Source: Rubrobacter calidifluminis (GTDB taxonomy: Bacteria; Actinomycetota; Rubrobacteria; Rubrobacterales; Rubrobacteraceae). From it: a stretch of DNA of 64,000 nucleotides. The notes beneath the pieces are model-generated. The model was not told the DNA's origin and did no database searches. It saw only the letters and a program-made list of their open reading frames with translations. This document shows, one piece after another, positions 21,054 through 37,709 of this stretch. The stretch spans positions 1 to 64,000 of the forward strand of contig NZ_JAQKGV010000013.1 in assembly GCF_028617075.1 (NCBI RefSeq), in the 5' to 3' direction. The position numbers and the translations under genes are program-made. Position 1 is the stretch's first letter. Each line of letters opens with the position of its first letter.

Positions 21054-21081
21054 TTCGACATATAGGGTGGGGGGGTATAGT
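21054..21081 (+). promoter_or_regulatory. copA promoter with G-tract CsoR-type operator in the spacer
   Basis: TTCGAC (21054-21059) and TATAGT (21076-21081) are 16 nt apart. The spacer is filled by ATAGGGTGGGGGGGTA (21062-21077), whose complement starts TACCCCC like known CsoR half-sites. It lies 35 nt before the copA start. The csoR gene in the same operon makes copper-relieved repression the expected control. Confidence 0.6.
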
Positions 21082-21115
21082 ATATGAGTAGAGGCTCCGA
21101 TCTGAAAGGAGTTCT

Positions 21116-23599
21116 ATGAGCGAGACCAAAGAGCGGAAGATGTTGGTTCTTCCGGTGAGGGGGATGAGTTGTGCCTCGTGTGTCCGGAGGGTCGAGAAGA
21201 CGCTCTCCGGGGTCTCCGGGGTTGATTCTACGAGCGTCAACCTGGCAACGGGCACGGCCCGGGTCGAGTATGGGGAGGGGGCCCCTGATCCCCGGGCGCT
21301 GGTCGAGGCCGTGCAGGGGGCGGGCTACGAGGTGCCGGTCGAGCGGGTCGACTTCGAGGTCCGGGGGATGACGTGTGCCAGCTGCGTCCGCAGGGTCGAG
21401 CGGGCGTTGGAGGGAGTTTCCGGGGTTTTGGGGGCCAACGTCAACCTGGCGACCGGCAGGGCTACGGTGGAGTATCTGCCCGGAGAAACCGGGAGAGAAG
21501 ACTTCGAGCGGGCCGTCACGGGAGCCGGCTACGAGGTGGTCTTCGATGCGGAGGATGGCGGCTCTGCCGAGCCGGAAGATCGTAAAGAGCAGTCCATATT
21601 GAAGAAGGATTTCCTCGGGGCGGCCGCACTCACGCTCCTCGTAGTGCTCGGGAGCATCCCACACATGTTCGGTTTCAGACCGCCGGTTCCCGGGCAGCTG
21701 TGGAACGTTGGGCTGCTGATCCTGGCGACGCCGGTCCAGTTCTGGTTCGGGCGGCGCTTCTATCGGGGAGCCTGGGGGGCCCTCAGGCACCTGCAGGCCG
21801 ACATGAACACGCTGGTCGCGCTCGGGACGAGCGTCGCCTACCTCTACAGCGCGGTGGCGACCTTCGCACCGGGGCTCTTCGCCGGCAGGGCGGACGTATA
21901 TTTCGACACCTCCACCCTGATCATCACCCTCATCCTGCTCGGCAGGTTGCTCGAAGCCCGGGCCAGGGGGCGGGCCAGCGACGCGATAAAGAAGCTCGCC
22001 GGGCTGCAGGCGAAGACGGCGCGCCTCGTGCGCGACGGTGAAGAGGTCGACGTGCCCGTCGAAGAAGTCGCTGTCGGGGACGTCGTGGTGGTGAGGCCCG
22101 GAGAGAAGATCCCGGTCGACGGCGTCGTGATCTCCGGGGAGTCCGCGGTGGACGAGGCCATGATCACCGGTGAGTCCCTGCCCGTCACCAAGCGGGAGGG
22201 GGACGAGGTGATCGGGGCGACCATCAACAAGAGCGGGTCCTTCAGGATGCGGGCCACGAAAGTTGGGCGCGATACCGCTCTCGCCAGGATCATGAGGATG
22301 GTCGAGGAGGCGCAGGGTTCCAAAGCCCCGATCCAGCGGTTGGCCGACAGGATCAGCGCCGTGTTCGTGCCGGCCGTGATACTGGTCGCGGTCTTCACCT
22401 TCTTCGTCTGGCTCATCGTCGGTCCGCAGCCCGCCTTCACCCACGCGCTGCTCAACGCGGTCGCCGTCCTGATCATCGCCTGCCCGTGCGCGATGGGGCT
22501 TGCGACCCCGACCTCCATCATGGTCGGCACCGGCCGGGGGGCCGAGCGAGGGATACTGATCAAAGGCGGCGAGGTGCTGGAGAACGCCCGCCGGGTGGAC
22601 ACGGTCGTCTTCGACAAGACCGGCACGCTCACCCGGGGGGAGCCCGTTCTGACGGACGTGATCGCGGGCGACGGCTTCACGGAAGAAGAGCTTTTGCGTC
22701 TCGCCGCCGCCGCGGAGCGCGACAGCGAGCATCCGCTCGGAGAAGCGATAGTGAGGGGGGCCGAGGAGAGAGGGATCTCGCCGGAGTCCCCCACCTCGTT
22801 CGAGGCCCCGACCGGTCGCGGTGTCAGGGCCGGGGTCGACGGTCACGAGGTGCTCGTGGGCAACCTCAGGCTCATGCAGGAGGCCGGTGTCCCCGTGGAC
22901 GGGCTCGCGCCGCGGCTGGACGACCTCTCCGCCGACGGGAAGACGCCCGTTCTCGTCGCGGTGGACGGGAACCCCGCAGGGATCCTCGCCGTCGCCGACG
23001 TGGTGCGCGAGGAATCCAAAGAGGCGATCGAAGAGCTGCACCGGATGGGGCTCGAGGTTGCCATGATCACCGGCGACAACCGCTGCACGGCAGAGGCCGT
23101 CGGCCGGGAGCTCGGCTTGGACCGCGTCCTCGCCGAGGTCCTGCCGGAGGGCAAGGAAGAGGAGATCCGGAAGCTCCAGAAGGAGGGCAGACGCGTCGCG
23201 ATGGTCGGGGACGGCATAAACGACGCCCCGGCGCTCGCCCGGGCAGACCTCGGTATCGCCATCGGCACGGGGACCGACGTGGCGATGGAGGCCGGGGACA
23301 TCACCCTGATCTCGGGCGACGTTCGCGGGGTCGCGCGGGCGATCCGTCTCTCCAGGGCCACCGTGCGCAACATAAAACAGAACCTCTTCTGGGCCTTCGC
23401 CTACAACGTCGTCCTGATACCGGTGGCGGCCGGCGTACTCTACCCGGTCTTCAGCGGCGGAGGAACGCCCGGGGTGCTGCACCCGTTCCTCGGTCAGTAC
23501 GGGTTCCTGAACCCGGCCCTCGCGGCTCTGGCGATGGCGCTATCCTCTGTGACGGTGGTGAGCAACGCGCTTCGCTTGCGCAGAGAGGAGATCGGCTGA
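21116..23599 (+). CDS. copA: Copper-translocating P1B-type ATPase, two N-terminal HMA domains
   Basis: Protein of 827 aa. Two heavy-metal-associated domains each carry a CxxC site: GMSCASC (about residues 18-24) and GMTCASC (about 84-90). Then come the eight-helix membrane domain with the IACPCAMG (CPC) transport site, TGES actuator loop, phosphorylation site [16 protein letters not shown] dipeptide loop (DSEHPLGEA) and hinge [20 protein letters not shown]. The CPC plus downstream YN and MxxSS elements ([25 protein letters not shown]) indicate Cu(I) export. First gene of copA-csoR-copZ. Confidence 0.97.
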
Positions 23600-23602
23600 C
23601 GG

Positions 23603-23914
23603 ATGGAGAGCGCGAAGAGCCAGGAGGCCCACGGCTACATCAAGGCTCAGGACAAGGAGAAGATCCTGGCCCGCCTGAAGAGGATCGAGGGACAGGTGCG
23701 GGGCGTGCAGCGCATGGTCGAGAACGACGAGTACTGCGTCGACGTCCTCACCCAGATCTCGAGCTTCATCTCCGCCTCGGAGAAGGTGGCCCTGTTGTTG
23801 CTCAGGGACCACACCGACCACTGCGTGCGCAGGGCGATCGAGAGCGGAGGCCGGGAAGCGGACGAGAAGGTCGATGAGCTGCTCGAAGCCGTAGAGCGGT
23901 TCATGAGAGTGTAG
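23603..23914 (+). CDS. csoR: CsoR-type copper-sensing repressor (DUF156)
   Basis: Protein of 103 aa, all-helical. It contains KEKILARLKRIEGQVRGVQRMVENDEYCVDVLTQI (helix with the first Cys) and DHTDHCVRRAIESG (His and second Cys), giving the Cys-His-Cys Cu(I) triad of CsoR. Copper binding releases the tetramer from G/C-rich operators. It starts 3 nt after copA. The G-rich element in the copA promoter and its near copy before nuoA are plausible targets. Confidence 0.95.
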   Translation: MESAKSQEAHGYIKAQDKEKILARLKRIEGQVRGVQRMVENDEYCVDVLTQISSFISASEKVALLLLRDHTDHCVRRAIESGGREADEKVDELLEAVERFMRV

Positions 23915-23941: not shown

Positions 23942-24151
23942 ATGGTCGAGCGAACCCTGAACGTGGAGGGAATGAGCTGCGCTCACTGCAAGGCCGCCGT
24001 CGAGGGCGAGCTGAACAAGCTCGATGGCGTCGAGCACTCCGACGCGGACTTCGAGAAGGGCACCGTCGAGGTGCGCTACGACGAAAGCCGGGTGACCGAT
24101 GACGACCTGAGGGCCGCTATCGAGGAGGCCGGCTACACCCTGGTCGCCTGA
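23942..24151 (+). CDS. copZ: Copper chaperone CopZ (HMA domain)
   Basis: Protein of 69 aa consisting of one ferredoxin-like HMA domain: VEGMSCAHCKAAVEGELNKL with the CxxC, then VEVRYDESRVTDDDLRAAIEEAGYTLV. It carries Cu(I) in the cytoplasm and delivers it to CopA. AAAGGAGAAG precedes the ATG. Third gene of the copper operon and followed by a hairpin terminator. Confidence 0.95.
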   Translation: MVERTLNVEGMSCAHCKAAVEGELNKLDGVEHSDADFEKGTVEVRYDESRVTDDDLRAAIEEAGYTLVA

Positions 24152-24163
24152 TCCCCAAAAATG

Positions 24164-24200
24164 GCGGGGAGATTCGGTTGTACGCTCCGGATCTCCCCGC
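24164..24200 (+). terminator. Hairpin terminator after copZ
   Basis: A 14-bp stem with one G-T wobble (24164-24177 pairing with 24187-24200) and a 9-nt loop, 12 nt past the copZ stop. No T-tract follows. It separates the copper operon from the nuo-like operon. Confidence 0.65.
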
Positions 24201-24225
24201 TCAGTGCCTGGGAGATGTTTCGTGG

Positions 24226-24241
24226 ATAGGGGTAGGGGGTA
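24226..24241 (+). promoter_or_regulatory. G-rich element matching the copA promoter box (candidate second CsoR site)
   Basis: ATAGGGGTAGGGGGTA is identical at 13 of 16 positions to 21062-21077 in the copA promoter. Its complement TACCCCCTACCCCTAT starts with a CsoR-like half-site. It is 91 nt before the nuoA start and just after the copZ terminator. No clear -35/-10 pair was identified around it. Confidence 0.5.
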
Positions 24242-24287: not shown

Positions 24288-24320
24288 GTGGACGATCTGA
24301 AGCCTGAAGAGACTTCATGA
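24288..24320 (+). CDS. Ten-codon leader ORF overlapping the nuoA start
   Basis: GTG start, ten codons (MDDLKPEETS) and TGA, behind a good GGAAGGAGA site. The stop region TCATGATG contains the nuoA start, which has only a weak site of its own. This arrangement suggests that ribosomes finishing the leader restart on nuoA. Whether it is translated is unproven. Confidence 0.4.
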   Translation: MDDLKPEETS

Positions 24321-24682
24321 TGAGCCCTCTCGAACAGTACGCGTTGCTCCTGGGGATGATCGCGGGTACGGCCGGGCTCGTGGGGTGTGTGTACCTGATC
24401 GGGCGCTCCTTCGGGAAGCCCCGGCGGGAGGAGGGCAAGGATGTCCCCGCCTCTTCCGGAAGGCTCTCCTCCGAGCCGGTCTGGGTACGCTACCACGTCC
24501 GGTATTACGGTCTCGCCCTGCTTTTCCTGGCCTTCGACATGGAGATGGCCTTCATGTACCCCTGGGCCGTCGTCTACAGGAAGGTGGGGCTGGAGGCCCT
24601 GCTGGACATGGGGGTGTTCCTCGCGATCCTGTTCCTGGGGCTGCTCTACGGCTGGAGCCAGGGGGCGCTGAAGCGCAGGTGA
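24317..24682 (+). CDS. nuoA: Complex I-like subunit A (NuoA)
   Basis: Protein of 121 aa with three membrane helices. The NuoA signature is recognisable: VRYHVRYYGLALLFLAFDME followed by MAFMYPWAV. The loop usually reading YECG is SSEPVW here, so that conserved Cys is lost. It starts an eight-gene operon in the canonical order A-B-D-H-J-K-L-M-N, with C, E, F, G and I missing. In complex I this subunit holds the quinone-cavity loop next to NuoH and NuoD. Confidence 0.88.
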   Translation: MMSPLEQYALLLGMIAGTAGLVGCVYLIGRSFGKPRREEGKDVPASSGRLSSEPVWVRYHVRYYGLALLFLAFDMEMAFMYPWAVVYRKVGLEALLDMGVFLAILFLGLLYGWSQGALKRR

Positions 24683-26337
24683 TCACCGGGGCGCGCAAGG
24701 GGGAGACGTCCTGGCTCAGGCGGCTGGCCGCCCGCGCCTCGTCGAAGGAGCTCGCGGCGTTCGTCGTGCCCGGCCCCGAGGTCGCGCGTGCCTTCGGCCT
24801 CGATCTCGGGGCGGCTGGGCTTCGGGTGGTTCCATCCCCCCGTCACGCCAGCGTGCTCGTGGTCGTAGGCGGGCTGCCAGAAGGACTGCGGGACGCAGCC
24901 TCGGTGATCTATGCCCAGATGATGCGGCCCAGGGCCGTTCTCGTCCTGGGTTCCGATACTGCCTCCCCGCTACCCGGGCCGGACGTTTCGGCCCCCATGG
25001 ATCAGGAATCGCTCTCGGCCGCGGTGGCGAGGCTGCGCCGGGCGTTCGCCGAGGGGGCCTGGGACCCGGGGGTGGAGGATTACGCACCGGAGGCGGCGGC
25101 GACCGAGACCCGCTACACCTGCCCCATGCACCCCGAAGTCGTGCAGAAGGAGCCCGGCGCTTGTCCCAAGTGTGGTATGGACCTGGTGCCGCGCGAAGTC
25201 TCCTCCGGAGAGAGTGACGGAGAGGAGGAGGAAGAAGAGGCCGGCGAACTGCACCACGGTTCGATGGACCATGGAGAGCACGGCTCCGGAGGCCACGAGC
25301 ACATGGACCACACAGACATGGGGTTCATGTCGATGGTCGAGATGACCAGAGACCTGCAGCCCAGCGGCGACGGCCTCAGGATGGAGTGGGTGGAGGTTCC
25401 TTTCGGTCCGCTCTTCCCCGGGCTTCCCGGCGGGCTCGCACTCACCTTCACGCTCGACGGCGATACGGTGGCCTGCGTTCAGAGCGGGTCGGCGGTAGGG
25501 AGAGGGGGGGGATGTCTGCAGGGAGTTCCGGTGGACGATCTGTTGGAGCATCTGGGCCGGATCGACCCGCTCTCCCCGGTCGCCTACCGGGTGCTCGCCC
25601 TCAGGGCCGTCGAGAACGCGGCCGGGGTGGAACCCGCGCGGGCTACCGCGTACCTCGGGGCGCTGGAGCACGAGCGGGTGGTGAGCCACCTGGGATGGCT
25701 CTCAAGCTTCGGGTACCTGATAGGGTACGAGTGGTTGCATCGGCGGGCCGCTGGTCTGCAGCTCGCCCTGCTGCGCGACGATACCGGTGAGGGAGAGACG
25801 CTGTGGGGTGACCTGTCGGATCTCCTGCAGAGGCTGCGGGGTGCCACGCTCTTGCGGCGCAGGCTGGAGGGCGTCGGACGTCTGCGTACGGCGCGGGCCG
25901 CAGAGTACCCGGGGCCGGTCTCCCGCGCCGCAGGGCTTCCCTACGATGTCCGCTCGGAAGAGAAAGCTTACCAGGATCTGGGCTTCGAGCCGGCCGTGCA
26001 GGAGGGGAACGACGCATACTCTCGTCTGATGTTGCACCTCGACGAGATGGAGCGGAGCCAGGAGATCGTCCAGGCCGTGGGTTCCGTCTCGGCGCCGGAC
26101 GATCTGGGGGTGCAGGATGGCATCTCGGGAGAAGGTGACGCCACGGTGGAGACCCCACGCGGTCCGGCGAGGCTCCGCGTGCGGATCGAGGACGGGATGG
26201 TACGCTCCGCGGAGCTCGAGACTCCCTCCGGGCGGCACGCGCAGCTCGTAGAGGATGTGGCCCTCGAGCACGAGGTCGCGGACGCGTTGGCCGGGGTTGC
26301 CTCGCTCGACCTCTCGCCGTGGGGGATGACGCGATGA
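24679..26337 (+). CDS. NuoB-like / heavy-metal-binding / NuoD-like fusion protein without redox-site residues
   Basis: Protein of 552 aa; GTG overlaps the nuoA stop. Residues about 15-135 align with NuoB (VVPSPRHASVLVVVGGLPEG, IYAQMMRPRAVLVLGSD) but contain no cysteine, so no N2 cluster can form. Residues 146-172 are a heavy-metal-binding domain (YTCPMHPEVV...GACPKCGMDLVP) as in CopA/CusB-type proteins, followed by an acidic run and a His/Met-rich linker (HHGSMDHGEHGSGGHEHMDH). Residues 235-552 resemble NuoD: GPLFPGLPGG replaces GPQHPATHG, then SHLGWL, GPVSRAAGLPYD and a final DALAGVASLDLSPWGMTR. The quinone-site His motif is gone. Possibly a metal-responsive structural or regulatory plug on the membrane arm; function is inferred. 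Confidence 0.85.
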   Translation: MITGARKGETSWLRRLAARASSKELAAFVVPGPEVARAFGLDLGAAGLRVVPSPRHASVLVVVGGLPEGLRDAASVIYAQMMRPRAVLVLGSDTASPLPGPDVSAPMDQESLSAAVARLRRAFAEGAWDPGVEDYAPEAAATETRYTCPMHPEVVQKEPGACPKCGMDLVPREVSSGESDGEEEEEEAGELHHGSMDHGEHGSGGHEHMDHTDMGFMSMVEMTRDLQPSGDGLRMEWVEVPFGPLFPGLPGGLALTFTLDGDTVACVQSGSAVGRGGGCLQGVPVDDLLEHLGRIDPLSPVAYRVLALRAVENAAGVEPARATAYLGALEHERVVSHLGWLSSFGYLIGYEWLHRRAAGLQLALLRDDTGEGETLWGDLSDLLQRLRGATLLRRRLEGVGRLRTARAAEYPGPVSRAAGLPYDVRSEEKAYQDLGFEPAVQEGNDAYSRLMLHLDEMERSQEIVQAVGSVSAPDDLGVQDGISGEGDATVETPRGPARLRVRIEDGMVRSAELETPSGRHAQLVEDVALEHEVADALAGVASLDLSPWGMTR

Positions 26338-27233
26338 CGGTGTTCCTCGTGCTGGTGATGCTCTTCGCCGGGGCGTACCTCGTCGCCGTGCTCGAGGGAT
26401 GGACTTCGACCGGACGCCTCAGGTTCGCCGGCCCGTTCTGGGCCGCCGTTGCACTCCTGGGACGCGAGTCGATCGTACCCCGCAAGCCGGACCGCGTCCT
26501 CTACGAGACCGCCCCCGTTCTGCTCCTCGTCTCGGCGGTGCTGGCGGCGGCGGTGCTCCCGCTCGGGCCGCACCTCGTCATCGCCGACCTCGCCACCGGC
26601 GCTCTGGCCGTCAACGCCGCGCTCGCTTACGTCATGGTGGCGCTCGTCATGGCCGGCTGGGGGCCGGACGGGGCGTACGCGATGGTCGCCGGCTGGCGCT
26701 TCCTCGGGCAGCTGGTCGCCTACTCCATGCTCATCGTCATGCCCATAACCGCGGTGGCGATGCGTGCCGGCTCACTCGTCACGACCACCATCGTCGAGTC
26801 GCAGGCCGGGATCTGGAACGCGCTCACCCAGCCGCTCGGGTTCGTGCTTTTCTTCCTGGCGGCGATGGCGGTCTGCTTCTTGCCGCCGTTCGACCTGCCC
26901 ACCGCGCCGGGCGAGCTGGCGGGTGGGATCGAGGCCGAGTACGCAGGACCGCGGCTCGCGGTGGTGCGTCTGGCGCGCATGGTGCTCGTGGTGAGTCTCT
27001 CGCTCGCCGTCACGGTCTTCTTCCTCGGCGGGTGGCTCGGGCCTTTCCTGCCTGGCTGGGCGTGGACCTCCTTGAAGACGCTCGTGGTGGCGGCAACCAT
27101 GCTCACGGCCGGGCGGTACGTCCCGAGGCTGCGCGGCGAGCACGTCATGGAGTGGGGCTGGAAGCTCGGCATACCGCTCGCGCTGGTCAACATATTCTGG
27201 GTCGGCATAACCCTGGTCCTGAGGAGCATGTGA
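26334..27233 (+). CDS. nuoH: Complex I-like subunit H (NuoH)
   Basis: Protein of 299 aa, somewhat short for NuoH. It has about eight helices: ATG overlaps the fusion gene stop, GPFWAAVALLGRESIVPRKPDR at the N-terminal loop, then FLPPFDLPTAPGELAGGIEAEYAG, the NuoH cavity loop that normally reads PFDLPEAE.ELV.G...EYS. One glutamate of that loop is replaced. NuoH joins the Q-site to the antiporter-like subunits in complex I. Confidence 0.88.
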   Translation: MTVFLVLVMLFAGAYLVAVLEGWTSTGRLRFAGPFWAAVALLGRESIVPRKPDRVLYETAPVLLLVSAVLAAAVLPLGPHLVIADLATGALAVNAALAYVMVALVMAGWGPDGAYAMVAGWRFLGQLVAYSMLIVMPITAVAMRAGSLVTTTIVESQAGIWNALTQPLGFVLFFLAAMAVCFLPPFDLPTAPGELAGGIEAEYAGPRLAVVRLARMVLVVSLSLAVTVFFLGGWLGPFLPGWAWTSLKTLVVAATMLTAGRYVPRLRGEHVMEWGWKLGIPLALVNIFWVGITLVLRSM

Positions 27234-27730
27234 TGGCGCAGGCTTTCTTCACCGGTTTCTTCGGGCTCGCGGCGATCTGGTTCGGCGTGGTGGTCTTCCG
27301 CACCTCCTCGATGGTCCGCTCGGCGCTCGCGCTACTGTTCTCGCAGGCCGCCATCGGCGCGATGTTCCTCGCGATGCAGACCGAATTTTTGGGGGTGCTG
27401 CAGATCATGATGATGGCGACCGAGATGGCGATCATGGCGATCTTCATGGTCATGTACATGATGGACCCGGGTGGACTCGGCGGGATGGACATGACGCACC
27501 AGAAGCGCCTCTCGATAGCCGCGGGCATCTTTGGTGGGGCCGCCGCGGTCGCCGTCTCGTTGCTCGGCGGGTGGGGGACGGTCGGCCCGTCCACCATGCC
27601 GGAGGCTCAGGTCGCCGCGCTCGGGGAGGAACTCCTGGGACGCTCGATGCTCGTCTTCGAGACCGCGGGGATCACCATCCTGACGGCGATGATCGCCGCG
27701 ACGGCGGTAGCCATAGAGAGGAGGCGATGA
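27233..27730 (+). CDS. nuoJ: Complex I-like subunit J (NuoJ), Met-rich
   Basis: Protein of 165 aa with about five helices; ATG overlaps the nuoH stop. Family alignment rests on SALALLFSQAAIGAMFLAMQ and the third helix, with operon position. It contains 18 methionines (11 percent), 11 of them in the segment IMMMATEMAIMAIFMVMYMM plus GGMDM. Such density is unusual for NuoJ and suggests soft-metal contacts or simply hydrophobic substitution. Confidence 0.82.
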   Translation: MAQAFFTGFFGLAAIWFGVVVFRTSSMVRSALALLFSQAAIGAMFLAMQTEFLGVLQIMMMATEMAIMAIFMVMYMMDPGGLGGMDMTHQKRLSIAAGIFGGAAAVAVSLLGGWGTVGPSTMPEAQVAALGEELLGRSMLVFETAGITILTAMIAATAVAIERRR

Positions 27731-28038
27731 TGGCTACGCTGCTGGTCGCTCTGGTCGCCGGGGCGGTGCTCTTCGGGATCGGGCTCTACGGCGCCCTCTC
27801 CCAGACGAACCTGGTCATGATCATGATGGGCGTCGAGCTGATGCTTGGGGCGGCGATGGTCAACCTGGTGGCTTTCTGGCGCTTTTTGCACCCCGCAGCC
27901 TACTCCGGGCAGATGTTCGTCCTCATCGTGATGACCGTGATGGCGCTCGAGATGGCGGTGGGCTTCGGCGTGGGCACGGCCCGCTTCCGCTCCAGAGGGT
28001 CGGTGGAGATGGAGGAGGCGGAGGATCTCAAGGGATGA
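27727..28038 (+). CDS. nuoK: Complex I-like subunit K (NuoK), Met-rich
   Basis: Protein of 103 aa with three helices. Both key membrane glutamates of the family are present: GVELMLGAAMVNL (E36-equivalent) and LIVMTVMALEMAVG (E72-equivalent). Twelve residues are Met. It overlaps nuoJ and nuoL by 4 nt each. In complex I NuoK forms part of the fourth proton half-channel, and the retained glutamates imply that ion transfer is conserved. Confidence 0.92.
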   Translation: MMATLLVALVAGAVLFGIGLYGALSQTNLVMIMMGVELMLGAAMVNLVAFWRFLHPAAYSGQMFVLIVMTVMALEMAVGFGVGTARFRSRGSVEMEEAEDLKG

Positions 28039-29780
28039 CGGTAGCCGCCCTCACCATCCTGGGCCCCCTCGCCGCGCTCGTCGCGATCCTTCTCTTCCGA
28101 CGTGCCCCGGCCGCACTGGCCCTGCTCGGGGCCGGGGTGGAGGTGGTCTCCGCCGCGGTCACGCTGGTCCGGGTGGCTGGTGGAGCGAATTTCTCCGCGG
28201 CGCTGCCCGGGCTTCCGGGTTTCCCGCTCAGGATCGTGGTCGAGCCGCTCACGGCGGTGCTCGCCGTGCTCGTCGCGGTAGTGAGCGTGCTGGTGATGGT
28301 CTACGCGGTGGGTTACATGGAGGGAGCGCGCGGCAGGGTGCGCTTCTTCGCCAAGATGTCCTTCTTCGCCGCCATGATGCAGACGCTCGTCGTGGCCGGC
28401 GACTGGGTCCTGCTTTTGGCGGCGTGGGAGCTCATCGGTCTGGCCTCCTACCTCCTGATCGGATTCTCCCACGAGAAAGGGAGGACGGGGTCTGCGGCCA
28501 CCCGTGCCTTCCTCTACACCCGCACCGCAGACCTGGGGCTCTACGTGGCGGTCTTCGTCCTGATCTCGCGCTCCGGCACGAGCGAGATCTCCGGGACTTT
28601 CGGTGTCGGTGGTCCGGCCGCCTTCGCCGCGGGGATCTTGCTCCTGCTCGCCGCGGCGGGCAAGTCGGCGCAGGTCCCGCTCCAGGGCTGGCTGCAGGAC
28701 GCGATGGTCGCGCCCACCCCCGTCACCGCCTTCCTCCACTCGGCCACCCTGGTGGCGGCGGGGGCGATACTCCTGATCCGGACCTTCCCGCTGCTTTCGC
28801 CCGGGGTGCTCCTCGTCGTCGGGCTCCTCGGCGGCGTGACCGCCGTGGCGACCGGCGTGACCGCGGTGGCCGAGCGCGACCTCAAGCGCCTTTTGGCGGC
28901 CTCGACCTCCAGCCAGTACGGGTTCATGCTGCTCGCTCTCGGGGCGGGCTTCCCGGCGGCCGCGCTCTTTCACCTCGCCGCCCATGCTGCGATGAAGAGC
29001 GCCCTGTTCGCCGGCTCGGGCATCTTCCAGCGCGCCCGGGGCTCGACATCCTTCTCCGATCTCGGAGGAAGCGGGCGCGAGCGACCCCTCGTCTTCACCG
29101 CCTTCACGGTCGCCGGGCTCGCGCTCGCCGCCGTCCCGCCGCTCGCCGGGTACTTCTCCAAGGACGCTATCGTCGCCGCCGCCTACGAGTCCGGCTACGG
29201 CTTCGTTCTCCTCCCGCTCGCGCTCGCCGGGGCTCTTCTGACCGGAGCGTACGTCGCACGCGCTCTGAGGCTCCTGTGGCGGGGCGAGAAGAGAGAGGAG
29301 CCCGTCGCCGGTATGCGGTGGATGTGGGCTGGGCTCGCCTCTCTCACCGTGCTGGCCGTCTTCGTGGGGTTCCTGAAAGGAGCTCTCTCCGGGCTGATCG
29401 GGGAGGAGATACCGGACGAGCTGGTGACCACGGTCGTCGGTACCGCCGCCGCCTTCCTCGGGTTGTTTCTGGGATGGACCTTCACCGCAGATCGTTTGCT
29501 CGGCCCGCTGCGCGCGGCCGCAGAGAACGGGTTCCGCCTCGCGGGCGGAGTGGACGCGCTGGTGGCGAAACCGGCGCTCGCGCTCGCCGAAGCGGTGCGG
29601 GTCGCCGACGAGCGTGGGATCGACGGTGTGATCTTCGCGCTCGTACGTGGCGCCCGCGGTCTCGGTGAGCGTGTCCGCGCGCTGCAGAGCGGGCTGGTGC
29701 ACAGGGAGCTCGCGCTCGCGGCGGGCGGGATGGCGCTGTTGCTGGTGTTCCTCGCGGTCGAAGCCATGAGAGGCCTGTAG
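28035..29780 (+). CDS. nuoL: Complex I-like antiporter subunit L (NuoL)
   Basis: Protein of 581 aa. Mrp/NuoL features: AAWELIGLASYLLIGFS (helix 5 Glu), AAGKSAQVPLQGWLQDAMVA then PTPVTAFLHSATLVAAG (helix 7 Lys and the helix 8 His), and PPLAGYFSKDAIVAAA (helix 12 Lys). A long C-terminal tail from about residue 480 ends in a last helix, consistent with the lateral helix. The ion-pump residues are therefore intact. Confidence 0.94.
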   Translation: MTVAALTILGPLAALVAILLFRRAPAALALLGAGVEVVSAAVTLVRVAGGANFSAALPGLPGFPLRIVVEPLTAVLAVLVAVVSVLVMVYAVGYMEGARGRVRFFAKMSFFAAMMQTLVVAGDWVLLLAAWELIGLASYLLIGFSHEKGRTGSAATRAFLYTRTADLGLYVAVFVLISRSGTSEISGTFGVGGPAAFAAGILLLLAAAGKSAQVPLQGWLQDAMVAPTPVTAFLHSATLVAAGAILLIRTFPLLSPGVLLVVGLLGGVTAVATGVTAVAERDLKRLLAASTSSQYGFMLLALGAGFPAAALFHLAAHAAMKSALFAGSGIFQRARGSTSFSDLGGSGRERPLVFTAFTVAGLALAAVPPLAGYFSKDAIVAAAYESGYGFVLLPLALAGALLTGAYVARALRLLWRGEKREEPVAGMRWMWAGLASLTVLAVFVGFLKGALSGLIGEEIPDELVTTVVGTAAAFLGLFLGWTFTADRLLGPLRAAAENGFRLAGGVDALVAKPALALAEAVRVADERGIDGVIFALVRGARGLGERVRALQSGLVHRELALAAGGMALLLVFLAVEAMRGL

Positions 29781-29792
29781 GAGGAGGTTTTG

Positions 29793-31265
29793 GTGTTCCC
29801 GGTCGTCTCCGTGACCCTGTTCGTCCCGCTTCTGGGAGCGGCGCTCTTGGTCGTGCTGCGCAAGATCCCGCCGCGCGGCGCGCACGCCATCGGTCTCGTC
29901 TCTTCCGGGCTTGCGCTGGCCGGGTCGGGGTTGATGTGGGTGCGCGGCGTCTCGGGGGCGGGGTTCTCCCAGGTCGAGGAGGCCTCCTGGATGCCCTCGA
30001 TAGGGGTGGCCTACCGTGTGGGTGTGGACGGGATAAGCCTGCCGCTCGTGCTGTTGACAGCGGTGCTGTTCTTCCTGGCCCTGGTCTTCTCCGTCGGGGT
30101 CGAGAGGGACGCCCGCTCCTACGTGGCGCTGTTTTTGCTGCTGGAGACGGCGTGCATCGGGGTCTTCGTCGCTCTGGATACGATCCTCTTCTACGTCTTC
30201 TTCGAGGTCACGCTGGTCGCGATGTACTTCATCATCTACGGCTGGGGTTACGAGGAGCGCCGGCGCGCCGCGATCACGTTCTTCCTCTACACCCTGCTCG
30301 GGAGCCTGCCCTTGCTGCTCGCGATCCTCGTCCTCTACGCCGGGAGCAGCCCGCACACCTTCGACGTGCAGAAGCTCGTGGCCTCACCGCCCCTGACGGG
30401 GCTTGCGGCCGCGTTCGCCTTTCTCGCCATGCTGGTCACGTTCGCGATCAAAAGCCCCATCTTCCCGGTGCACACCTGGCTGCCGCTGGCGCACACCGAG
30501 GCCCCGACCGCGGGCAGCGTCATACTGGCGGGTGTCCTGCTGAAGATCGGGACATACGGTCTGATCCGGTTCGCCCTGCAGATGACCCCCGACGCCTTCC
30601 GGGTCGCGGCCCCCTACGTGGCGGGGATCGCGGTTGTCAGCGCTCTCTGGGGGGCTTTCGCCGCCCTGGCCCAGAAGGACCTCAAACGGCTCGTCGCCTA
30701 CACGAGCGTCAACCACATGGGCTACGTCTTCCTGGCCGTCGCGGCGGCCGCTGCGGCAACGAGCGCGCAGGTGAGGACGCTCGCGCTCGACGGGGCCGTG
30801 CTGCAGATGGTGAGCCACGGGCTCGTGACCGGCGCGTTGTTTTTAGTGGTCGGTGCGTTGCAAGAACGGGCACACACGCGCGAGATGGGCGCCTTCGGCG
30901 GGCTGTTGCGGGTCACGCCGGCGCTGGGGTGGTTCTTCGTCCTCTTCTCCTTCGCCTCGCTCGGGCTGCCGGGGCTCGCCCACTTCCCGGCGGAGTTCCA
31001 GATCTTTCTCGGCTCGTTCCGGGTGTACCCGGTCGCGGCGGCGGTCGCGCTGGTGGGGATCGCCGTGACCGCCGGGCTGTACCTGCGCGCGATACGGGTC
31101 TCCTTCTTCGGCAGGCCCGACGGGTGGCTGCAGGGGATGAGGGATCTCGGGGTGCGAGAGGTCCTGGCGACGGCGCCGCTCCTTGCTCTGACCATCGTGG
31201 TCGGGGTCTACCCGGCCCTGATCCTCGGCGTCGTACACCATACGACGAAGGCGATGGGGTTGTGA
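29793..31265 (+). CDS. nuoM: Complex I-like antiporter subunit M (NuoM)
   Basis: Protein of 490 aa from GTG 29793 (GGAGG 5 nt upstream; TTG 29790 is too close). Conserved pump residues: YVFFEVTLVAMYFIIYGWG (Glu), AIKSPIFPVHTWLPLAHTEA (Lys) with GSVILAGVLLKIGTYGLIRF (second Lys), and HFPAEFQIFLGSF (helix 12 Glu in place of Lys, as in other NuoM). It is the middle antiporter-like module and overlaps nuoN by one base. Confidence 0.94.
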   Translation: MFPVVSVTLFVPLLGAALLVVLRKIPPRGAHAIGLVSSGLALAGSGLMWVRGVSGAGFSQVEEASWMPSIGVAYRVGVDGISLPLVLLTAVLFFLALVFSVGVERDARSYVALFLLLETACIGVFVALDTILFYVFFEVTLVAMYFIIYGWGYEERRRAAITFFLYTLLGSLPLLLAILVLYAGSSPHTFDVQKLVASPPLTGLAAAFAFLAMLVTFAIKSPIFPVHTWLPLAHTEAPTAGSVILAGVLLKIGTYGLIRFALQMTPDAFRVAAPYVAGIAVVSALWGAFAALAQKDLKRLVAYTSVNHMGYVFLAVAAAAAATSAQVRTLALDGAVLQMVSHGLVTGALFLVVGALQERAHTREMGAFGGLLRVTPALGWFFVLFSFASLGLPGLAHFPAEFQIFLGSFRVYPVAAAVALVGIAVTAGLYLRAIRVSFFGRPDGWLQGMRDLGVREVLATAPLLALTIVVGVYPALILGVVHHTTKAMGL

Positions 31266-32641
31266 TGTCGCTCGCCCGGATGGCGCACGATCTCACGCTG
31301 CTCGCGCCTCAGCTCGCGGTGCTTTGGGCGGCGGTGGGCGCGCTCGCCTTCGAGATGCTACGTCTGCCGAAGGTGGCGCTCGTCTACACGGTGGTCGGGC
31401 TCTTCTCGGCGGCGGGTCTGGCCGTGGCGTTCCTGGGGACGCAGACGAGCGTCTTTACCGGGACCTACCGGGTGGACTCCCTGAGCCTGTGGGCCGTGAT
31501 CGTGCTCTCGAGCGCGACGGCTTTCGTCGCGGTGCTCGCCCGCCGCGAGGTCAGGGGCACCGACCGCGAGGGTACGGTCTACGCACTGCTCGCCTTCACG
31601 TTGCTGGGGGCGATCATGCTCGCCGGAGCGGGGGATGTGATGTTCCTGGTGCTGGGCGTGCTGCTCTCCAGCCTGGGGTCCTTCGCCCTGGTGGCCTACC
31701 CCAGGGACGACCGGGCGACCGAGGCGGCGATGAAATACTTCGTCTTCGGATCGGTCTCCGAGGCGGTCATGATCTTCGGCCTCACCTACTGGTATGGAGC
31801 TGTAGGCTCGACTTTGCTCTCCGAGCTCCCTTCACTCAAGGGATACCCGCTCGCGGCGGCGTTCGGGCTGGTCGCTGTCCTGGTGGGGCTCGGGTACAAG
31901 GCGTCCTACGTCCCGTTTCACTTCTGGGCACCCGATGCCTACGAGGGCGCTCCGGTCTCGATCGCGGCGTTCCTGTCGATAGTGCCGAAGGTCGGAGCGA
32001 TCTTCGCTCTCGCCCAGGTCGTGCACGACCTGCCGGAGGGGCTCGTCGCCTGGCAGTTGGTGGTGGCGGTCCTCGCCGCCTTCTCGATGACCTACGGCAA
32101 CCTGGCGGCGCTCGTGCAGGAGAGGATCGTGCGACTTCTCGCCTACTCCTCGATAGCGCAGGCCGGGTACTTCCTGCTCGGCATCGTGGACGTGGGGCAG
32201 GGAGCACTGGCCCCGCGCTCCCTCGTCGTATTCGCCGCCGCCTACGCCGCGATGAACCTCGGGGCCTTCGCCGTGGTCCTGCAGGCGGGGAGGCGCATCG
32301 GAGACTTCACCGGGTTGTGGAGGACCTCGCCGTGGGCGGCCGGGGCGATGGTGGTGTTTTTGTTCTCTCTCGTCGGGGTGCCGCCGCTCGCGGGGTTCGT
32401 CGGAAAGTTCCTCCTGTTCGGGGCGGCGATAGACGCCGGGTATACGTGGCTCGCGGTGGTGGCGATCCTCAACAGCGTGCTCTCTTTGGGGGTCTACCTG
32501 CGGGTCGTCGTCCCCATGTTCCGGGAGCCCAAGAAGGCCCCCGCTTCTCCGCCGCTGGTCGTCGCGGTCTGGGGGGTGGCCTTCTTCGCCACCGCAGCCA
32601 TCGGGATCGCGGCGCAGGTCCTGCTGGGACGGGTGGTATAG
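31265..32641 (+). CDS. nuoN: Complex I-like antiporter subunit N (NuoN)
   Basis: Protein of 458 aa with about fourteen helices. Pump residues seen: FGSVSEAVMIFGLTYWYG (helix 5 Glu), GLGYKASYVPFHFWAPDAYE (helix 7 Lys), then GAPVSIAAFLSIVPKVGA (second Lys), and PPLAGFVGKFLLFGAAI (helix 12 Lys). Last gene of the nuo-like operon; an Lgt-like gene follows after 53 bp. Confidence 0.94.
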   Translation: MSLARMAHDLTLLAPQLAVLWAAVGALAFEMLRLPKVALVYTVVGLFSAAGLAVAFLGTQTSVFTGTYRVDSLSLWAVIVLSSATAFVAVLARREVRGTDREGTVYALLAFTLLGAIMLAGAGDVMFLVLGVLLSSLGSFALVAYPRDDRATEAAMKYFVFGSVSEAVMIFGLTYWYGAVGSTLLSELPSLKGYPLAAAFGLVAVLVGLGYKASYVPFHFWAPDAYEGAPVSIAAFLSIVPKVGAIFALAQVVHDLPEGLVAWQLVVAVLAAFSMTYGNLAALVQERIVRLLAYSSIAQAGYFLLGIVDVGQGALAPRSLVVFAAAYAAMNLGAFAVVLQAGRRIGDFTGLWRTSPWAAGAMVVFLFSLVGVPPLAGFVGKFLLFGAAIDAGYTWLAVVAILNSVLSLGVYLRVVVPMFREPKKAPASPPLVVAVWGVAFFATAAIGIAAQVLLGRVV

Positions 32642-32694: not shown

Positions 32695-33516
32695 ATGATA
32701 GAGATACCTTTCCCTCCAGAACTCCGGCTCGGGCCGCTCAGCATCAGCTGGCATAGCATAGCCATCCTCATCGGGTTCCTTGTCGGGTGGTTCCTCTTCG
32801 AGCGGCTAGCCAGAAGGAGAGGATATCCAGAGGCGTTTCTGGAGTGGGCTCCGATCGTGGCACTCCTGGTCGGGATCGTCGGGGCTAGGCTTTATTACGT
32901 GGCTCAGAGCAACCCCATGGAATACCTCCGCAACCCGGTGAGGATCCTGGAGGTGTGGCGGGGAGGGCTCGCCTTTTACGGCACGGTTGCTCTCGTCCCA
33001 TTGGCATTCCTGTGGCTCACCCGCCGTTACAGGGTGCCGTTCTGGTCGTTTGCTGATTTGATGGCGCTGGTCGGGGCTTTGGGGATGGCTATAGGCAGGA
33101 TCGGTGACGTAATAATCGGCGAACATTATGGCCCACCAACTTCTCTACCGTGGGGTGTCGTTTACTCCGTGGGAGGCTTGGAGAGACCAACTCCAGGTAT
33201 CGCGGTGCAGTCGGGAGCACTTTACGAGGTGGGGATAGACCTCTTGATCTTTGCCGCCGCCTGGTTTTTGAAAGACCTCTTGACAAAGAGGCCTGGGTTG
33301 CTGTTCGCCTTTGTGCTGGGGACGTTTGCTTTGAGCCGCGTAGTCATCTTTTCGGTGGTGCGCGACGTACCAGAGGTGGCTTTTGGGATGAACAATGCTC
33401 AACTAACCAGCATCTTCGCCCTGGTGGTTAGCCTCATGATCGCTGCGTGGAGGCGGAAACCAAAGACAGTGGAACCAGAGGTCTCGACGGGTGAGCGAGC
33501 GGGGTCGTTGAGATGA
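32695..33516 (+). CDS. Lgt-like prolipoprotein diacylglyceryl transferase family protein
   Basis: Protein of 273 aa with seven helices. Lgt motifs: ISWHSIAILIGFLVGW, ARLYYV, VWRGGLAFYG and GRIGDVIIGEHYG. The Arg and Glu of the last motif match E. coli R143 and E151, but the asparagines of GNFING are changed and the position of E. coli H103 is Tyr95. Lgt moves diacylglyceryl to the lipobox Cys. Given the altered residues and the metal-island context it may be an Lgt paralogue of different or reduced activity. Base composition is slightly lower in GC than its neighbours. Confidence 0.8.
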   Translation: MIEIPFPPELRLGPLSISWHSIAILIGFLVGWFLFERLARRRGYPEAFLEWAPIVALLVGIVGARLYYVAQSNPMEYLRNPVRILEVWRGGLAFYGTVALVPLAFLWLTRRYRVPFWSFADLMALVGALGMAIGRIGDVIIGEHYGPPTSLPWGVVYSVGGLERPTPGIAVQSGALYEVGIDLLIFAAAWFLKDLLTKRPGLLFAFVLGTFALSRVVIFSVVRDVPEVAFGMNNAQLTSIFALVVSLMIAAWRRKPKTVEPEVSTGERAGSLR

Positions 33517-33977
33517 GTCGGATGGAGGTCTTCTCGGATCTGAGGAACTGGCAGGCGCGGCGCTACGCCGTCGCCGCGCTCGCGGGTCTCGTCTGGCTGG
33601 TGGTCTCCGGTGTTCCCACCGGCCTGATAAGCACCCCGATCTACCACCGGATGATACCGGCCACGTGGTGGGACTACACGTTCTGGGTGGCCGGGGCGGT
33701 GCTGGGGGGGTTGCTGCTGGCGACCTACGTGAACCCCGCGCCCGTCTCCGGACGGTCCGGCACCGAAGGGGGACTGCTCGGCGGTATCTTCTCGGTGTTC
33801 GCCATAGGATGTCCTGTGTGCAACAAGCTCGTCGTGCTGGCCCTCGGGGCGAGCGGGGCGCTCACCTACTTCGCTCCGATCCAGCCGCTGCTCGGTTTCT
33901 TCTCCGTGGGGATGTTGCTCTATGCCCTCTATCGCCGGCTCGAGGGCGAGCGTGCCTGTCCGGTCGGCAGGGGGTAG
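33513..33977 (+). CDS. Membrane protein with conserved CPVC motif in a helix
   Basis: Protein of 154 aa with four helices; ATG overlaps the Lgt-like stop. The third helix starts FAIGCPVCNKLVVLALGASGA, placing a CXXC at the membrane surface; a further Cys lies near the C terminus (RACPVGRG). I do not recognise a named family. Thiol-disulfide or soft-metal handling is plausible from the motif and from the copper-related neighbours. Confidence 0.75.
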   Translation: MSRMEVFSDLRNWQARRYAVAALAGLVWLVVSGVPTGLISTPIYHRMIPATWWDYTFWVAGAVLGGLLLATYVNPAPVSGRSGTEGGLLGGIFSVFAIGCPVCNKLVVLALGASGALTYFAPIQPLLGFFSVGMLLYALYRRLEGERACPVGRG

Positions 33978-33992: not shown

Positions 33993-34676
33993 ATGGGCGT
34001 CAGGGTGCTGGTGGTGGAGGACGAGAGGAGCCTGGTGAGGCTCCTGCGGGCCTACCTGGAGCGGGAAGGCTTCGAGGTGTACGAGGCTTTCGACGGCAGG
34101 GCCGGGCTGGATATCGCGGGTGAAGTCCGGCCCGATGTCGTCGTCCTCGACTGGATGTTGCCGGAGCTGGACGGCCTGGAGGTGCTGCGCAGGCTGCGGC
34201 GTTTCTCGGATGCCTACGTGATCCTGCTCACTGCGCGCGTCGAGGAGACGGACCGTATCGTCGGTCTCTCGGCCGGAGCGGACGACTACCTGCCCAAACC
34301 TTTCTCTCCGGGTGAGCTGGTCGCCCGCGTGAGGGCCATGCTGCGCAGGCCGCGTTCCGGGACGGGACCGGAGGAGGAGCCTCTGCGCGTCGGTGAGCTC
34401 AGCATCGACCCTTCCAGGCGCGAGGTGCGTCTTGGGGGTAGGGAGATCGCACTCACCGCGATAGAGTTCGATCTCTTGGCGGCGCTCGCCTCCCGTCCCG
34501 GGCTGGTCTTCTCCCGCGCGCAGCTTCTGGAACGGGTGTGGGGCGAGGGGTATTTCGGGGATGATCACGTGGTGGACGTGCACATCGCCAACGTGCGCAA
34601 GAAGCTGGGGGAGGACGCTGCGCATCCGCGTTACATAGAGACGGTGCGCGGCGTGGGTTACAGGATGAGGAGATGA
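33993..34676 (+). CDS. OmpR-family response regulator
   Basis: Protein of 227 aa. Receiver domain: VVEDERS acidic pair, phospho-acceptor Asp53 in VVVLDWMLPELDG, LLTAR Thr and DDYLPKPFSPGEL Lys. C-terminal winged helix: EIALTAIEFDLLAALASRPG, LLERVWG, VVDVHIANVRKKLG, RYIETVRGVGYRM. It overlaps the histidine kinase gene by 4 nt. The island context points to copper or envelope metal stress as the signal. Confidence 0.95.
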   Translation: MGVRVLVVEDERSLVRLLRAYLEREGFEVYEAFDGRAGLDIAGEVRPDVVVLDWMLPELDGLEVLRRLRRFSDAYVILLTARVEETDRIVGLSAGADDYLPKPFSPGELVARVRAMLRRPRSGTGPEEEPLRVGELSIDPSRREVRLGGREIALTAIEFDLLAALASRPGLVFSRAQLLERVWGEGYFGDDHVVDVHIANVRKKLGEDAAHPRYIETVRGVGYRMRR

Positions 34677-35809
34677 GATGTCCCTCCCGGATGGGGTTCC
34701 GGGGTCTGCTGCCCAGGCTCTTCGCCTCGCACCTGGTCGTGGCCCTGGTGGGGACGCTGACCTTCCTGGTCGCGGTCTCTGTCGTGGCGCCGTTGCTCTT
34801 CGGCAACCTCATGCAGGGTCCGATGGGTCCCTCACACATGATGAGCATGGGCCAGATGATGGACTCCGTCTTTAGGGCCTTCGCGCGTACGCTCCTCTAC
34901 TCGCTCGCCGTCGCGGCGGTCGCCGCGATAGCGGTCGCCGCAGTGACGGGGATGTTCGTTGCGCGCAGGATCGTCGGTCCCCTGCGGGCGATGAGCCGGG
35001 CGACACGCCGCATAGCGGCCGGACGTTACGACGAACGCGTACCCGTGCGCGGCGACGACGAGCTCGGTGAGCTCGCCGAGAGCCTCAACGCGATGGCCCG
35101 GACCCTCCAGGCCACCGAACAGCGCCGGCTCGACCTCATCTCCGACGTTTCCCACGAGCTGAGGACTCCTCTGACGGTGATCGAGGGGTACATGGACGGG
35201 CTGATCGACGGTGTGGTCGAACCCTCGGAGGAGACCTGGTCTCTAGTGCGCGCCGAGGCCGGCCGTCTGCACCGTCTGGTGGACGAGATGCAGGAGCTCT
35301 CCCGGGCGGAGGCCGGCGGAATCCCCCTGCACCTGCGGGAAGTCTCGCCAAGGGAGGTCGTGGAGCAGGCCGCCGGTCTCCTCGGGCCGCTCTTCGCGGA
35401 GAAGGGCGTGAGGATGGAGGTCTCCGTCCCTGAGGATCTACCGCCGGTGCTCGCCGACCGGGACCGGGTCGTGCAGGTCCTGGACAACCTGCTCTCCAAC
35501 GCGCTGAAGTACACGCCGTCCGGAGGCGAGGTCTCCCTGTCGGCGCGTCGGGCGAAGGACGAGGTGTCTTTCCGGGTCACCGATTCCGGGGAGGGCATAG
35601 CACCCGAACATCTGCCGCACCTCTTCGAGCGGTTCTACCGGGTGGAGGGTTCCCGATCGCGCGAGAATGGCGGGGTCGGGGTGGGGCTCACCATCTGCCG
35701 GACGCTCGTCGAAGCGATGGGCGGCAGGATACACGCCGAGAGCGCCGGTCCTGGCAGGGGGGCGGCTTTCGAGTTCACCCTGCCCGTGGCTCCCCGGAGA
35801 GAATCTTGA
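34673..35809 (+). CDS. Sensor histidine kinase with Met-rich extracytoplasmic loop
   Basis: Protein of 378 aa. Two membrane helices (about 15-42 and 72-97) bracket a short loop with seven methionines and a His (M47, M51, H55-M56-M57, M59, M62-M63). Then HAMP (RRIVGPLRAMSRATRRIAAG), the H-box DVSHELRTPLT, N-box NLLSNALKYTP, and G boxes DSGEGIAPEHL and GGVGVGLTIC. It is complete. The loop resembles Cu(I)/Ag(I)-binding sequence, suggesting direct sensing of a soft metal outside the membrane. Confidence 0.94.
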   Translation: MRCPSRMGFRGLLPRLFASHLVVALVGTLTFLVAVSVVAPLLFGNLMQGPMGPSHMMSMGQMMDSVFRAFARTLLYSLAVAAVAAIAVAAVTGMFVARRIVGPLRAMSRATRRIAAGRYDERVPVRGDDELGELAESLNAMARTLQATEQRRLDLISDVSHELRTPLTVIEGYMDGLIDGVVEPSEETWSLVRAEAGRLHRLVDEMQELSRAEAGGIPLHLREVSPREVVEQAAGLLGPLFAEKGVRMEVSVPEDLPPVLADRDRVVQVLDNLLSNALKYTPSGGEVSLSARRAKDEVSFRVTDSGEGIAPEHLPHLFERFYRVEGSRSRENGGVGVGLTICRTLVEAMGGRIHAESAGPGRGAAFEFTLPVAPRRES

Positions 35810-36173: not shown

Positions 36174-37709
36174 GTGAAGATGGCTAAGCTGAGCCGCCGG
36201 GAGTTCTTCGGGCTTGCGGGGTTGGGGACGGGGGCCCTCGTCCTGGGTGCCTGCGGGAGATCTTCGGGTTCCGGAGCGGGCGCCGGCACCTCCCGCACTA
36301 CCCCTGCTCCGTCCGGCACCAGAGAGTACGCGCTCGATGTCTCGCCGGCACAGGTCAGGATCGGCGGGCGCCGGGTGAAGACCTGGACCTACGGGGGAAA
36401 CCTGCCGGGGCCCGAGATCCGGGTAAAAGAGGGAGAGCGGCTTCGGGTGAAGGTGAAGAACGCTCTGCCGGAGGGTACGACGGTACACTGGCACGGGCTC
36501 CCCATCCCCAACGGGATGGACGGTGTCCCGTACGTCACCCAGAAGCCGATAAAGCCGGGGGGGGAGTTCGTCTACGAGTTCACGGTCCCCGTCTCCGGCA
36601 CCTACTTCTACCACAGCCACGTCGGGCTCCAGCTCGACCGCGCCCTCTACGGTCCGCTCGTCATCGAGCCCAAAAAGGAATCGCTCTCCTACGACCGCGA
36701 GTACACGCTCATGCTCGACGACTGGCTCGACGGGGTGCGGGGTACTCCCGAGGACGCGATGAAGCGCCTCAAGTCCGGAGGGAGCGCGATGATCGGGATG
36801 GGCAGTATGGGAGGCATGGGAGGTATGGGAGGTATGGGAGGCATGGGTGGGGGCATGCGCGGTATGTCCGGGATGGGGGGCGGGAGCGAACCCCGCCAGT
36901 GGACGCCGGATATCGTCTACCCCTACTACCTGATCAACGGCAAACCCCCGGATTCTCCCGAGGAGCTCATGGTGAAGCGCGGGGAGCGACTCCGGCTGCG
37001 CTTCATCAACCCGGCGAGCGCGACGATCTTCAGGGTGGCCCTTGCCGGTCATCGCATGACCGTGACACACACCGATGGGCAGCCGGTCGAGCCGGTAGAC
37101 GTCGACGCTCTGCGGATCGGACCGGGTGAGCGTTACGATGTGATCGTCGAGGCGAACAACCCGGGTGTCTGGCAGCTCGCGGCACAGGCCGAGGGGACGG
37201 AGAAGATGGGACGTGCGATCCTGCGCTACCGGGGAAGCTCGGGCTCCGCTCCACCGGCAGGCCAGAAGCCGCCCGAGTTGGGAAAGAAGCTCCTCCTGTA
37301 CGGTATGCTCAGGGCAGCCTCTGGGGTCGACCTGCCTTCCGGGAGCCCGGATCAGGTGACACCCGTCACCCTCTCCGGGAACGAGCGGCGCTACGTCTGG
37401 AGGATCAACGGGAAGTCCTTCCATCCGGGACCCAACGCCACACCGGACCCGATCACGGCCGGAAGGAACAAGCATATCCGCTTCGAGTTCATGAACATGT
37501 CCATGATGCCCCACCCGATGCACCTGCACGGACACTCCTTCCAGGTGGACAACGGTACAGGAAGGGGACCGTTGAAGGACACCGCCATCGTCGACCCGAT
37601 GCAGAGGTTCGCCGTCGACTGGTACGCGGACAACCCCGGAGACTGGGCCTTCCACTGCCACCACCTCTACCACATGGAGGCCGGCATGATGCGGGTGGTC
37701 AGGGTGTAA
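36174..37709 (+). CDS. Multicopper oxidase, Tat-exported lipoprotein, Met/Gly-rich insert
   Basis: Protein of 511 aa. N terminus LSRREFFGLAGLGTGALVLGAC has a Tat motif and lipobox Cys. Copper sites: HWHGLPIPNGMDG, YFYHSHVG, HPMHLHGHSFQV and AFHCHHLYHMEAGMM with the Cys and axial Met of the type 1 site; all three cupredoxin domains are present. A Gly-Met insert (36807-36851) lies in the second domain. Likely periplasm-side cuprous oxidase of the CueO type. GTG 36174 or ATG 36180 are both possible starts; the ribosome site favours the former. Confidence 0.93.
   Translation: MKMAKLSRREFFGLAGLGTGALVLGACGRSSGSGAGAGTSRTTPAPSGTREYALDVSPAQVRIGGRRVKTWTYGGNLPGPEIRVKEGERLRVKVKNALPEGTTVHWHGLPIPNGMDGVPYVTQKPIKPGGEFVYEFTVPVSGTYFYHSHVGLQLDRALYGPLVIEPKKESLSYDREYTLMLDDWLDGVRGTPEDAMKRLKSGGSAMIGMGSMGGMGGMGGMGGMGGGMRGMSGMGGGSEPRQWTPDIVYPYYLINGKPPDSPEELMVKRGERLRLRFINPASATIFRVALAGHRMTVTHTDGQPVEPVDVDALRIGPGERYDVIVEANNPGVWQLAAQAEGTEKMGRAILRYRGSSGSAPPAGQKPPELGKKLLLYGMLRAASGVDLPSGSPDQVTPVTLSGNERRYVWRINGKSFHPGPNATPDPITAGRNKHIRFEFMNMSMMPHPMHLHGHSFQVDNGTGRGPLKDTAIVDPMQRFAVDWYADNPGDWAFHCHHLYHMEAGMMRVVRV
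36807..36851 (+). repeat. Five 9-bp tandem repeats encoding Met-Gly-Gly
   Basis: ATGGGAGGC/T units repeated five times within the multicopper oxidase gene give (MGG)n in the protein. The insert recalls the Met-rich segment of CueO that binds Cu(I). The unit number may vary by slippage. Confidence 0.9.

Follow-up and report, generated by a model that had tools for sequence, protein, structure and literature searches.

A G-rich putative CsoR operator shared by copA and a complex I-like operon in Rubrobacter calidifluminis

In Rubrobacter calidifluminis, a Cu(I) P-type ATPase gene (copA) and a downstream nuo-like operon are each preceded by a G-rich box, and shared copper control of the two appears well supported by comparison with related genomes. 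An earlier sequence-only reading had proposed that control of this kind would tie the nuo-like complex to copper; the comparison supports that tie, with binding of CsoR to the boxes remaining an inference. Our full proposal, that both boxes are CsoR operators, that the nuo-like operon is derepressed together with the copper genes, and that it encodes a non-redox, copper-handling proton machine, is given a probability of roughly 0.7. Control of the box before nuoA by CsoR is likewise likely but unproven, as there are no binding data.

Two G-rich boxes in a copper island

The whole stretch of DNA analysed, 64,000 nucleotides long and hereafter called the window, carries a copper island with the following features (gene assignments from Pfam).

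21,055–21,083, + strand: promoter-like element around the copA G-box, TCGACA-17-TAGTAT (9/12 match)
21,062–21,077, + strand: copA G-box ATAGGGTGGGGGGGTA, TAG-X9-GTA, putative CsoR operator (copA-promoter model and conservation)
21,116–23,599, + strand: copA, Cu(I) P-type ATPase with two HMA domains
23,603–23,914, + strand: csoR, CsoR/RcnR-family repressor (PF02583, E = 1e-29)
23,942–24,151, + strand: copZ, HMA copper chaperone
24,162–24,203, + strand: strong RNA hairpin in the copZ–nuoA gap (RNA folding)
24,226–24,241, + strand: nuoA G-box ATAGGGGTAGGGGGTA, TAG-X9-GTA, shifted variant, putative CsoR operator (pattern search and 16-mer recurrence)
33,993–35,809, + strand: two-component system (response regulator and histidine kinase) 3' of the nuo-like operon
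36,174–37,709, + strand: multicopper oxidase, part of this copper island

A 154-aa membrane protein without a Pfam match, conserved in the genus, is encoded at 33,513–33,977 between lgt and the two-component system.

The two boxes ATAGGGTGGGGGGGTA and ATAGGGGTAGGGGGTA agree at 13 of 16 positions when read directly from the sequence, and each has a GGGGGTA 3' end, so that TACCCCC stands on the complement of both, just as the sequence-only reading had it. This half-site alone is common in the GC-rich window and not enriched (10 copies versus 7.3 expected, with 10 or more in 20 of 100 shuffles); the full box is rare. Exact matches to ATAGGGNNNNGGGGTA in the 3.09-Mb genome are confined to the copA box and the nuoA box, and the same pair gives the only two exact matches to ATAGGGNNNGGGGGTA in 3,090,495 bases, with none at one mismatch. 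ATAGGGNNNGGGGGTA was made from the window pair itself, so its uniqueness in the genome is no independent test; more independent are the search with ATAGGGNNNNGGGGTA over 39 family genomes and a sequence-only model trained on 13 copA-promoter sites, all from other genera.

Across those 39 Rubrobacteraceae genomes, ATAGGGNNNNGGGGTA yielded 41 matches versus 5 for a reversed control, and at least 37 of the 41 sit within copper clusters. The following gene is copA in 25 cases, csoR in 2–3, nuoA in 5 and another copper-cluster gene in 6 (either a gene for a His-rich membrane protein or a membrane gene that adjoins multicopper oxidase, csoR or nuo), and 1–3 matches have no explanation. The copA-trained model returned the copA box as its top and only match in this genome (E = 4e-4), matched all 14 CsoR-bearing family genomes searched, and matched none of 9 genomes without a close CsoR (3 family members and 6 outgroups). 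In the relatives' loci that were fetched (n = 16, each 12–20 kb), the gene order copA-csoR-copZ-nuoA-nuoBD-HJKLM is kept wherever it is covered, with extra genes inserted in some. The copA promoter contains TATAGGGTAGGGGGGTAT or a near variant in every relative checked, and the box lies about 50–80 bp upstream of copA in all relatives examined. Lack of conservation had been named as a result that would refute the idea; the box instead proved conserved at copA in all relatives examined and before nuoA in several.

In four loci the same G-box was also seen 5' of a gene for a small, His-rich membrane protein, and in three of them a DUF305 gene follows; this suggests that DUF305 proteins may belong to the CsoR regulon.

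The copA box does lie between a putative -35 and -10, as had been read from the letters, since the promoter-like hexamer pair at 21,055–21,083 encloses it, and two promoter-like elements were found in this region versus 0.3 expected. At the nuoA box, which ends 75 bp upstream of nuoA, the promoter scan found no promoter-like hexamers and no good -10 is visible; promoter activity there, like CsoR binding and copper induction, is inferred. Under a core matrix from copA promoters of other genera only, the copA box scored 27.0 and the next best position in the window 9.7, with the nuoA box at 7.6 (rank 8 among about 128,000 positions), a score expected by chance with a probability of about 1–2% inside the copZ–nuoA gap. 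The nuoA box reads TA-G4-TA-G5-TA and the usual copA form TA-G3-TA-G6-TA, and this shift explains both the low matrix score and the failure of the copA-trained model to detect the box at E < 10. Taken alone, the box at 24,226 is suggestive; it becomes convincing only together with the comparative evidence.

That weak score (7.6 versus 27.0) and the missing -10 would suit a chance G-rich resemblance at 24,226, with read-through out of copA-csoR-copZ as the sole tie of nuoA to copper. An arrangement of that sort does exist, since nuoA adjoins copZ with no box between them in three of the relatives' loci, and the absence of a box from loci in which nuoA begins no more than about 180 bp after copZ fits a single transcript from copA. 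Chance nevertheless accounts poorly for the exact nuoA-box 16-mer, of which there are five copies in the 39 family genomes, in copper clusters every time: three precede nuoA in genomes of this genus that are close relatives of one another, and those in G021 and G060 lie upstream of copper-cluster membrane genes. Boxes also stand before nuoA in four of the relatives' loci (L045, L047, L050 and L054). Among the four genomes of other genera with a box before a nuoA that is apart from copZ, G009 has the perfect copA consensus, G023 and G011 the shifted form and G004 TAC-X9-GTA; the copA-trained model picks up the G009 box, which was absent from its training set, and in G011 nuo and copA are on different contigs, which counts against read-through. 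G005, G006 and the G021 chromosome showed no box before nuoA, though nuoA is apart from copZ there. In the window, both the box and a strong hairpin (in a region that folds at -42 kcal/mol, z -3.2) part copZ from nuoA; the hairpin, which emerged from folding after a short terminator scan of the gap gave nothing useful, has no U-run and is possibly a terminator or attenuator. We regard chance resemblance with read-through as unlikely, though not negligible.

A complex I-like operon linked to copper

The operon behind the nuoA box encodes the following proteins, the pump residues named being those well established for E. coli complex I.

24,317–24,682, + strand: NuoA-like subunit (Oxidored_q4; Pfam)
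24,679–26,337, + strand: fusion of NuoB-like part, HMBD, His/Met-rich linker and NuoD-like part, 552 aa (Pfam Complex1_49kDa and HMBD, hhalign, PDB profile, Foldseek)
25,114–25,191, + strand: HMBD within the fusion, residues 146–171, CPMHPEV..CPKCGMDL (PF19335, E = 1.4e-13)
25,192–25,347, + strand: His/Met-rich acidic linker within the fusion, ending in invariant FMSM (alignments)
26,319–27,233, + strand: NuoH-like subunit, with S and T where E. coli NuoH has E157 and E216 (Pfam, PDB alignment)
27,230–27,730, + strand: NuoJ-like subunit (Pfam)
27,724–28,038, + strand: NuoK-like subunit, both membrane Glu retained (Pfam, alignment)
28,035–29,780, + strand: NuoL-like subunit, pump Glu and Lys retained (Pfam, alignment)
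29,790–31,265, + strand: NuoM-like subunit, pump Glu and Lys retained (Pfam, alignment)
31,265–32,641, + strand: NuoN-like subunit, Lys retained and TM5 Glu replaced by Leu (Pfam, alignment)

The fusion, labelled in RefSeq only as a "heavy metal-binding domain-containing protein", aligns by hhalign with the genome's canonical NuoB over residues 41–97 and with its canonical NuoD over the C-terminal 300 residues. In the PDB profile comparison MbhL ranked first (E = 6e-25), other parts of the fusion matched MbhJ and the CopA N-terminus, and the HMBD reaches 51.0 bits against the curated PF19335 profile (cut-off 23.6). Foldseek returned the complex I 49-kDa subunit and MbhL; because confidence in the AlphaFold2 model was low (pLDDT 56.6, below 50 in the NuoB part), this result was used in support of the NuoD-like part only. 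Homologues of the fusion carry 0 to 4 HMBD copies (two have none, one gammaproteobacterial fusion has four), and their His/Met-rich linkers vary greatly in length with a constant FMSM end.

An ordinary redox proton pump, related to complex I or group 4 hydrogenases and copper-induced by happenstance, could for example maintain the proton gradient during copper stress, and the conserved pump Lys and Glu of the membrane-arm subunits K, L and M, which meet what is expected of antiporter-like complex I subunits, would agree with it. The redox apparatus, however, is missing. The operon (A, the B/D fusion, H and J–N) contains no NuoC, E, F, G or I; the NuoB-like part lacks the four Cys ligands of cluster N2, there being no Cys in fusion residues 1–146, whereas the genome's canonical NuoB has them; the quinone-site loop GPQHPSMHG (GPQHPSxHG) of NuoD reads GPLFPGLPGG, with both histidines gone; and NuoH has lost E157 and E216. 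The two NiFe-binding CxxC pairs expected in the large subunit of a group 4 hydrogenase were not found either, as the fusion alignment has no conserved Cys outside the HMBD, and the fusion thus appears to have neither NiFe nor Fe-S ligands. Moreover, the same genome has a canonical nuo operon, NuoC and NuoI included, at another place. A redox pump induced by coincidence is accordingly improbable, and the HMBD and His/Met linker, the loss of redox sites and the retention of pump residues together suggest the preferred reading, a copper-binding, non-redox, proton-coupled machine.

The same genome also holds a third complex I-like cluster, of the formate hydrogenlyase type, with NuoH-like, antiporter-like and NuoD-like proteins.

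Homologous operons occur beyond Actinomycetota in Gammaproteobacteria, Alphaproteobacteria and Chloroflexia, and on plasmids of Sulfitobacter, Paracoccus, Roseovarius, Thioclava, Nitratireductor and Rubrobacter. Genes beside them encode, among others, CusA, CopB, multicopper oxidase, SCO, heavy-metal P-type ATPase and MerR regulators; an exception is the Thioclava plasmid, whose copy is accompanied by no copper gene within 16 kb. These neighbours across phyla and plasmids, the joining of copZ and nuoA in one operon in other genomes and the HMBD within the NuoB/D fusion support a copper link in addition to the boxes. NuoH of the window is 63–68% identical to copper-linked copies elsewhere and 29% identical to the genome's own canonical NuoH; for NuoH and NuoM together, identities are 57–68% to copper-linked copies of Pseudomonadota and Chloroflexota and 29–38% to the genome's own canonical subunits. 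With high identity among themselves and low identity to canonical subunits, the copper-linked operons look like one distinct, horizontally moved kind, a reading made without a phylogenetic tree. We found no description of a copper-linked complex I-like operon in the open-licence literature; a subscription paper may exist.

IS elements flank the operon on several plasmids of Roseobacter and Paracoccus, one of which was typed as conjugative.

CsoR as the putative regulator

The presence of a CsoR gene at 23,603–23,914, between the two boxes, was confirmed by Pfam PF02583, and its translation contains a Cys-His-Cys copper site (C45, H70, C74) and an RLXR motif (R24-L-K-R27). The spacing of these ligands was compared with that of C36, H61 and C65 in Mycobacterium tuberculosis CsoR.

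Published type-2 operators of CsoR in Streptomyces lividans, Bacillus subtilis and Listeria have the form TAC-X9-GTA with G-tracts, and binding of S. lividans CsoR was abolished by changes in the TAC/GTA dyad (PMC3902906). Both window boxes meet the type-2 spacing (TA-X11-TA, with 11 bp between the outer TA steps and G/C tracts inside) and occupy a conserved position in promoters of copper genes, the TAG-X9-GTA of the nuoA box being located at -90 of nuoA. Neither meets the inverted TAC/GTA dyad, as the left half is TAG. The exact TAC-X9-GTA form occurs at the same place before copA in four relatives' loci (L047, L048, L049 and L051), at csoR in two (L052 and L054), and at csoR/copA in a Chloroflexia cluster of the same gene order. 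The simplest reading, for which binding data are lacking, is that Rubrobacteraceae CsoR may accept a G-rich operator variant.

That another copper regulator of the island binds the box, for example the response regulator at 33,993–34,676, is very doubtful, for although a two-component system lies downstream of the nuo-like operon and the TAG half-site deviates from the CsoR consensus, the box follows the presence of close CsoR genes, canonical CsoR sites stand at the same position in relatives, csoR is in nearly every cluster, and no such response regulator is seen by most copies within the 20 kb fetched.

Under the CsoR reading, the CsoR encoded between the boxes would use both as operators, with apo-CsoR occupying the TA-G(3-5)-NN-G(5-6)-TA box over the promoter. 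On binding Cu(I), CsoR would leave the box, and copA-csoR-copZ and, via the nuoA box, the nuo-like operon would be derepressed together. The machine so regulated would most likely belong to the complex I superfamily and translocate protons, but have no redox sites. The cytoplasmic stub predicted for it (NuoB-like part, HMBD, His/Met-rich linker, NuoD-like part) may bind copper, from which we infer cytosolic copper handling coupled to proton movement via HJKLMN; the direction and substrate of the proposed machine are likewise inferences.

What emerges is a copper regulon in Rubrobacteraceae that can be put to the test, marked by a G-rich form of the CsoR operator, together with signs of a complex I relative that is associated with copper and seemingly has no redox centre. 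If the machine works, a complex I membrane arm would be driven by, or would drive, something besides electron transfer, and it would be an unexpected addition to bacterial copper resistance, mobile plasmids included.

Comparison with known systems

Like CsoR type-2 operators, the window boxes have G-tracts between TA-rich ends, lie in copA/csoR promoters and carry the right half GGGGTA; unlike them, they have a left dyad of TAG rather than TAC, which makes the G-tract run on one strand, and a central dinucleotide that splits this tract at a position shifting between sites. The operon resembles the membrane arm of respiratory complex I in possessing all seven of its subunits (NuoA, H, J, K, L, M and N) with K, L and M retaining their pump residues, and differs in its changed NuoH E157/E216 and NuoN TM5 Glu and in having no NADH module. 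Matches of the fusion to MbhL and of its NuoB part to MbhJ of Pyrococcus furiosus bring it close to the group 4 membrane-bound hydrogenase and MBS, but here a single polypeptide joins the two subunits, with metal-binding domains between them. Finally, the fusion shares the CPMHPEV..CPKCGM motif (PF19335) with the HMBD of copper P-type ATPases and CusB-type adaptors, whereas its HMBD is inserted between NuoB-like and NuoD-like domains, sometimes in 2–4 copies.
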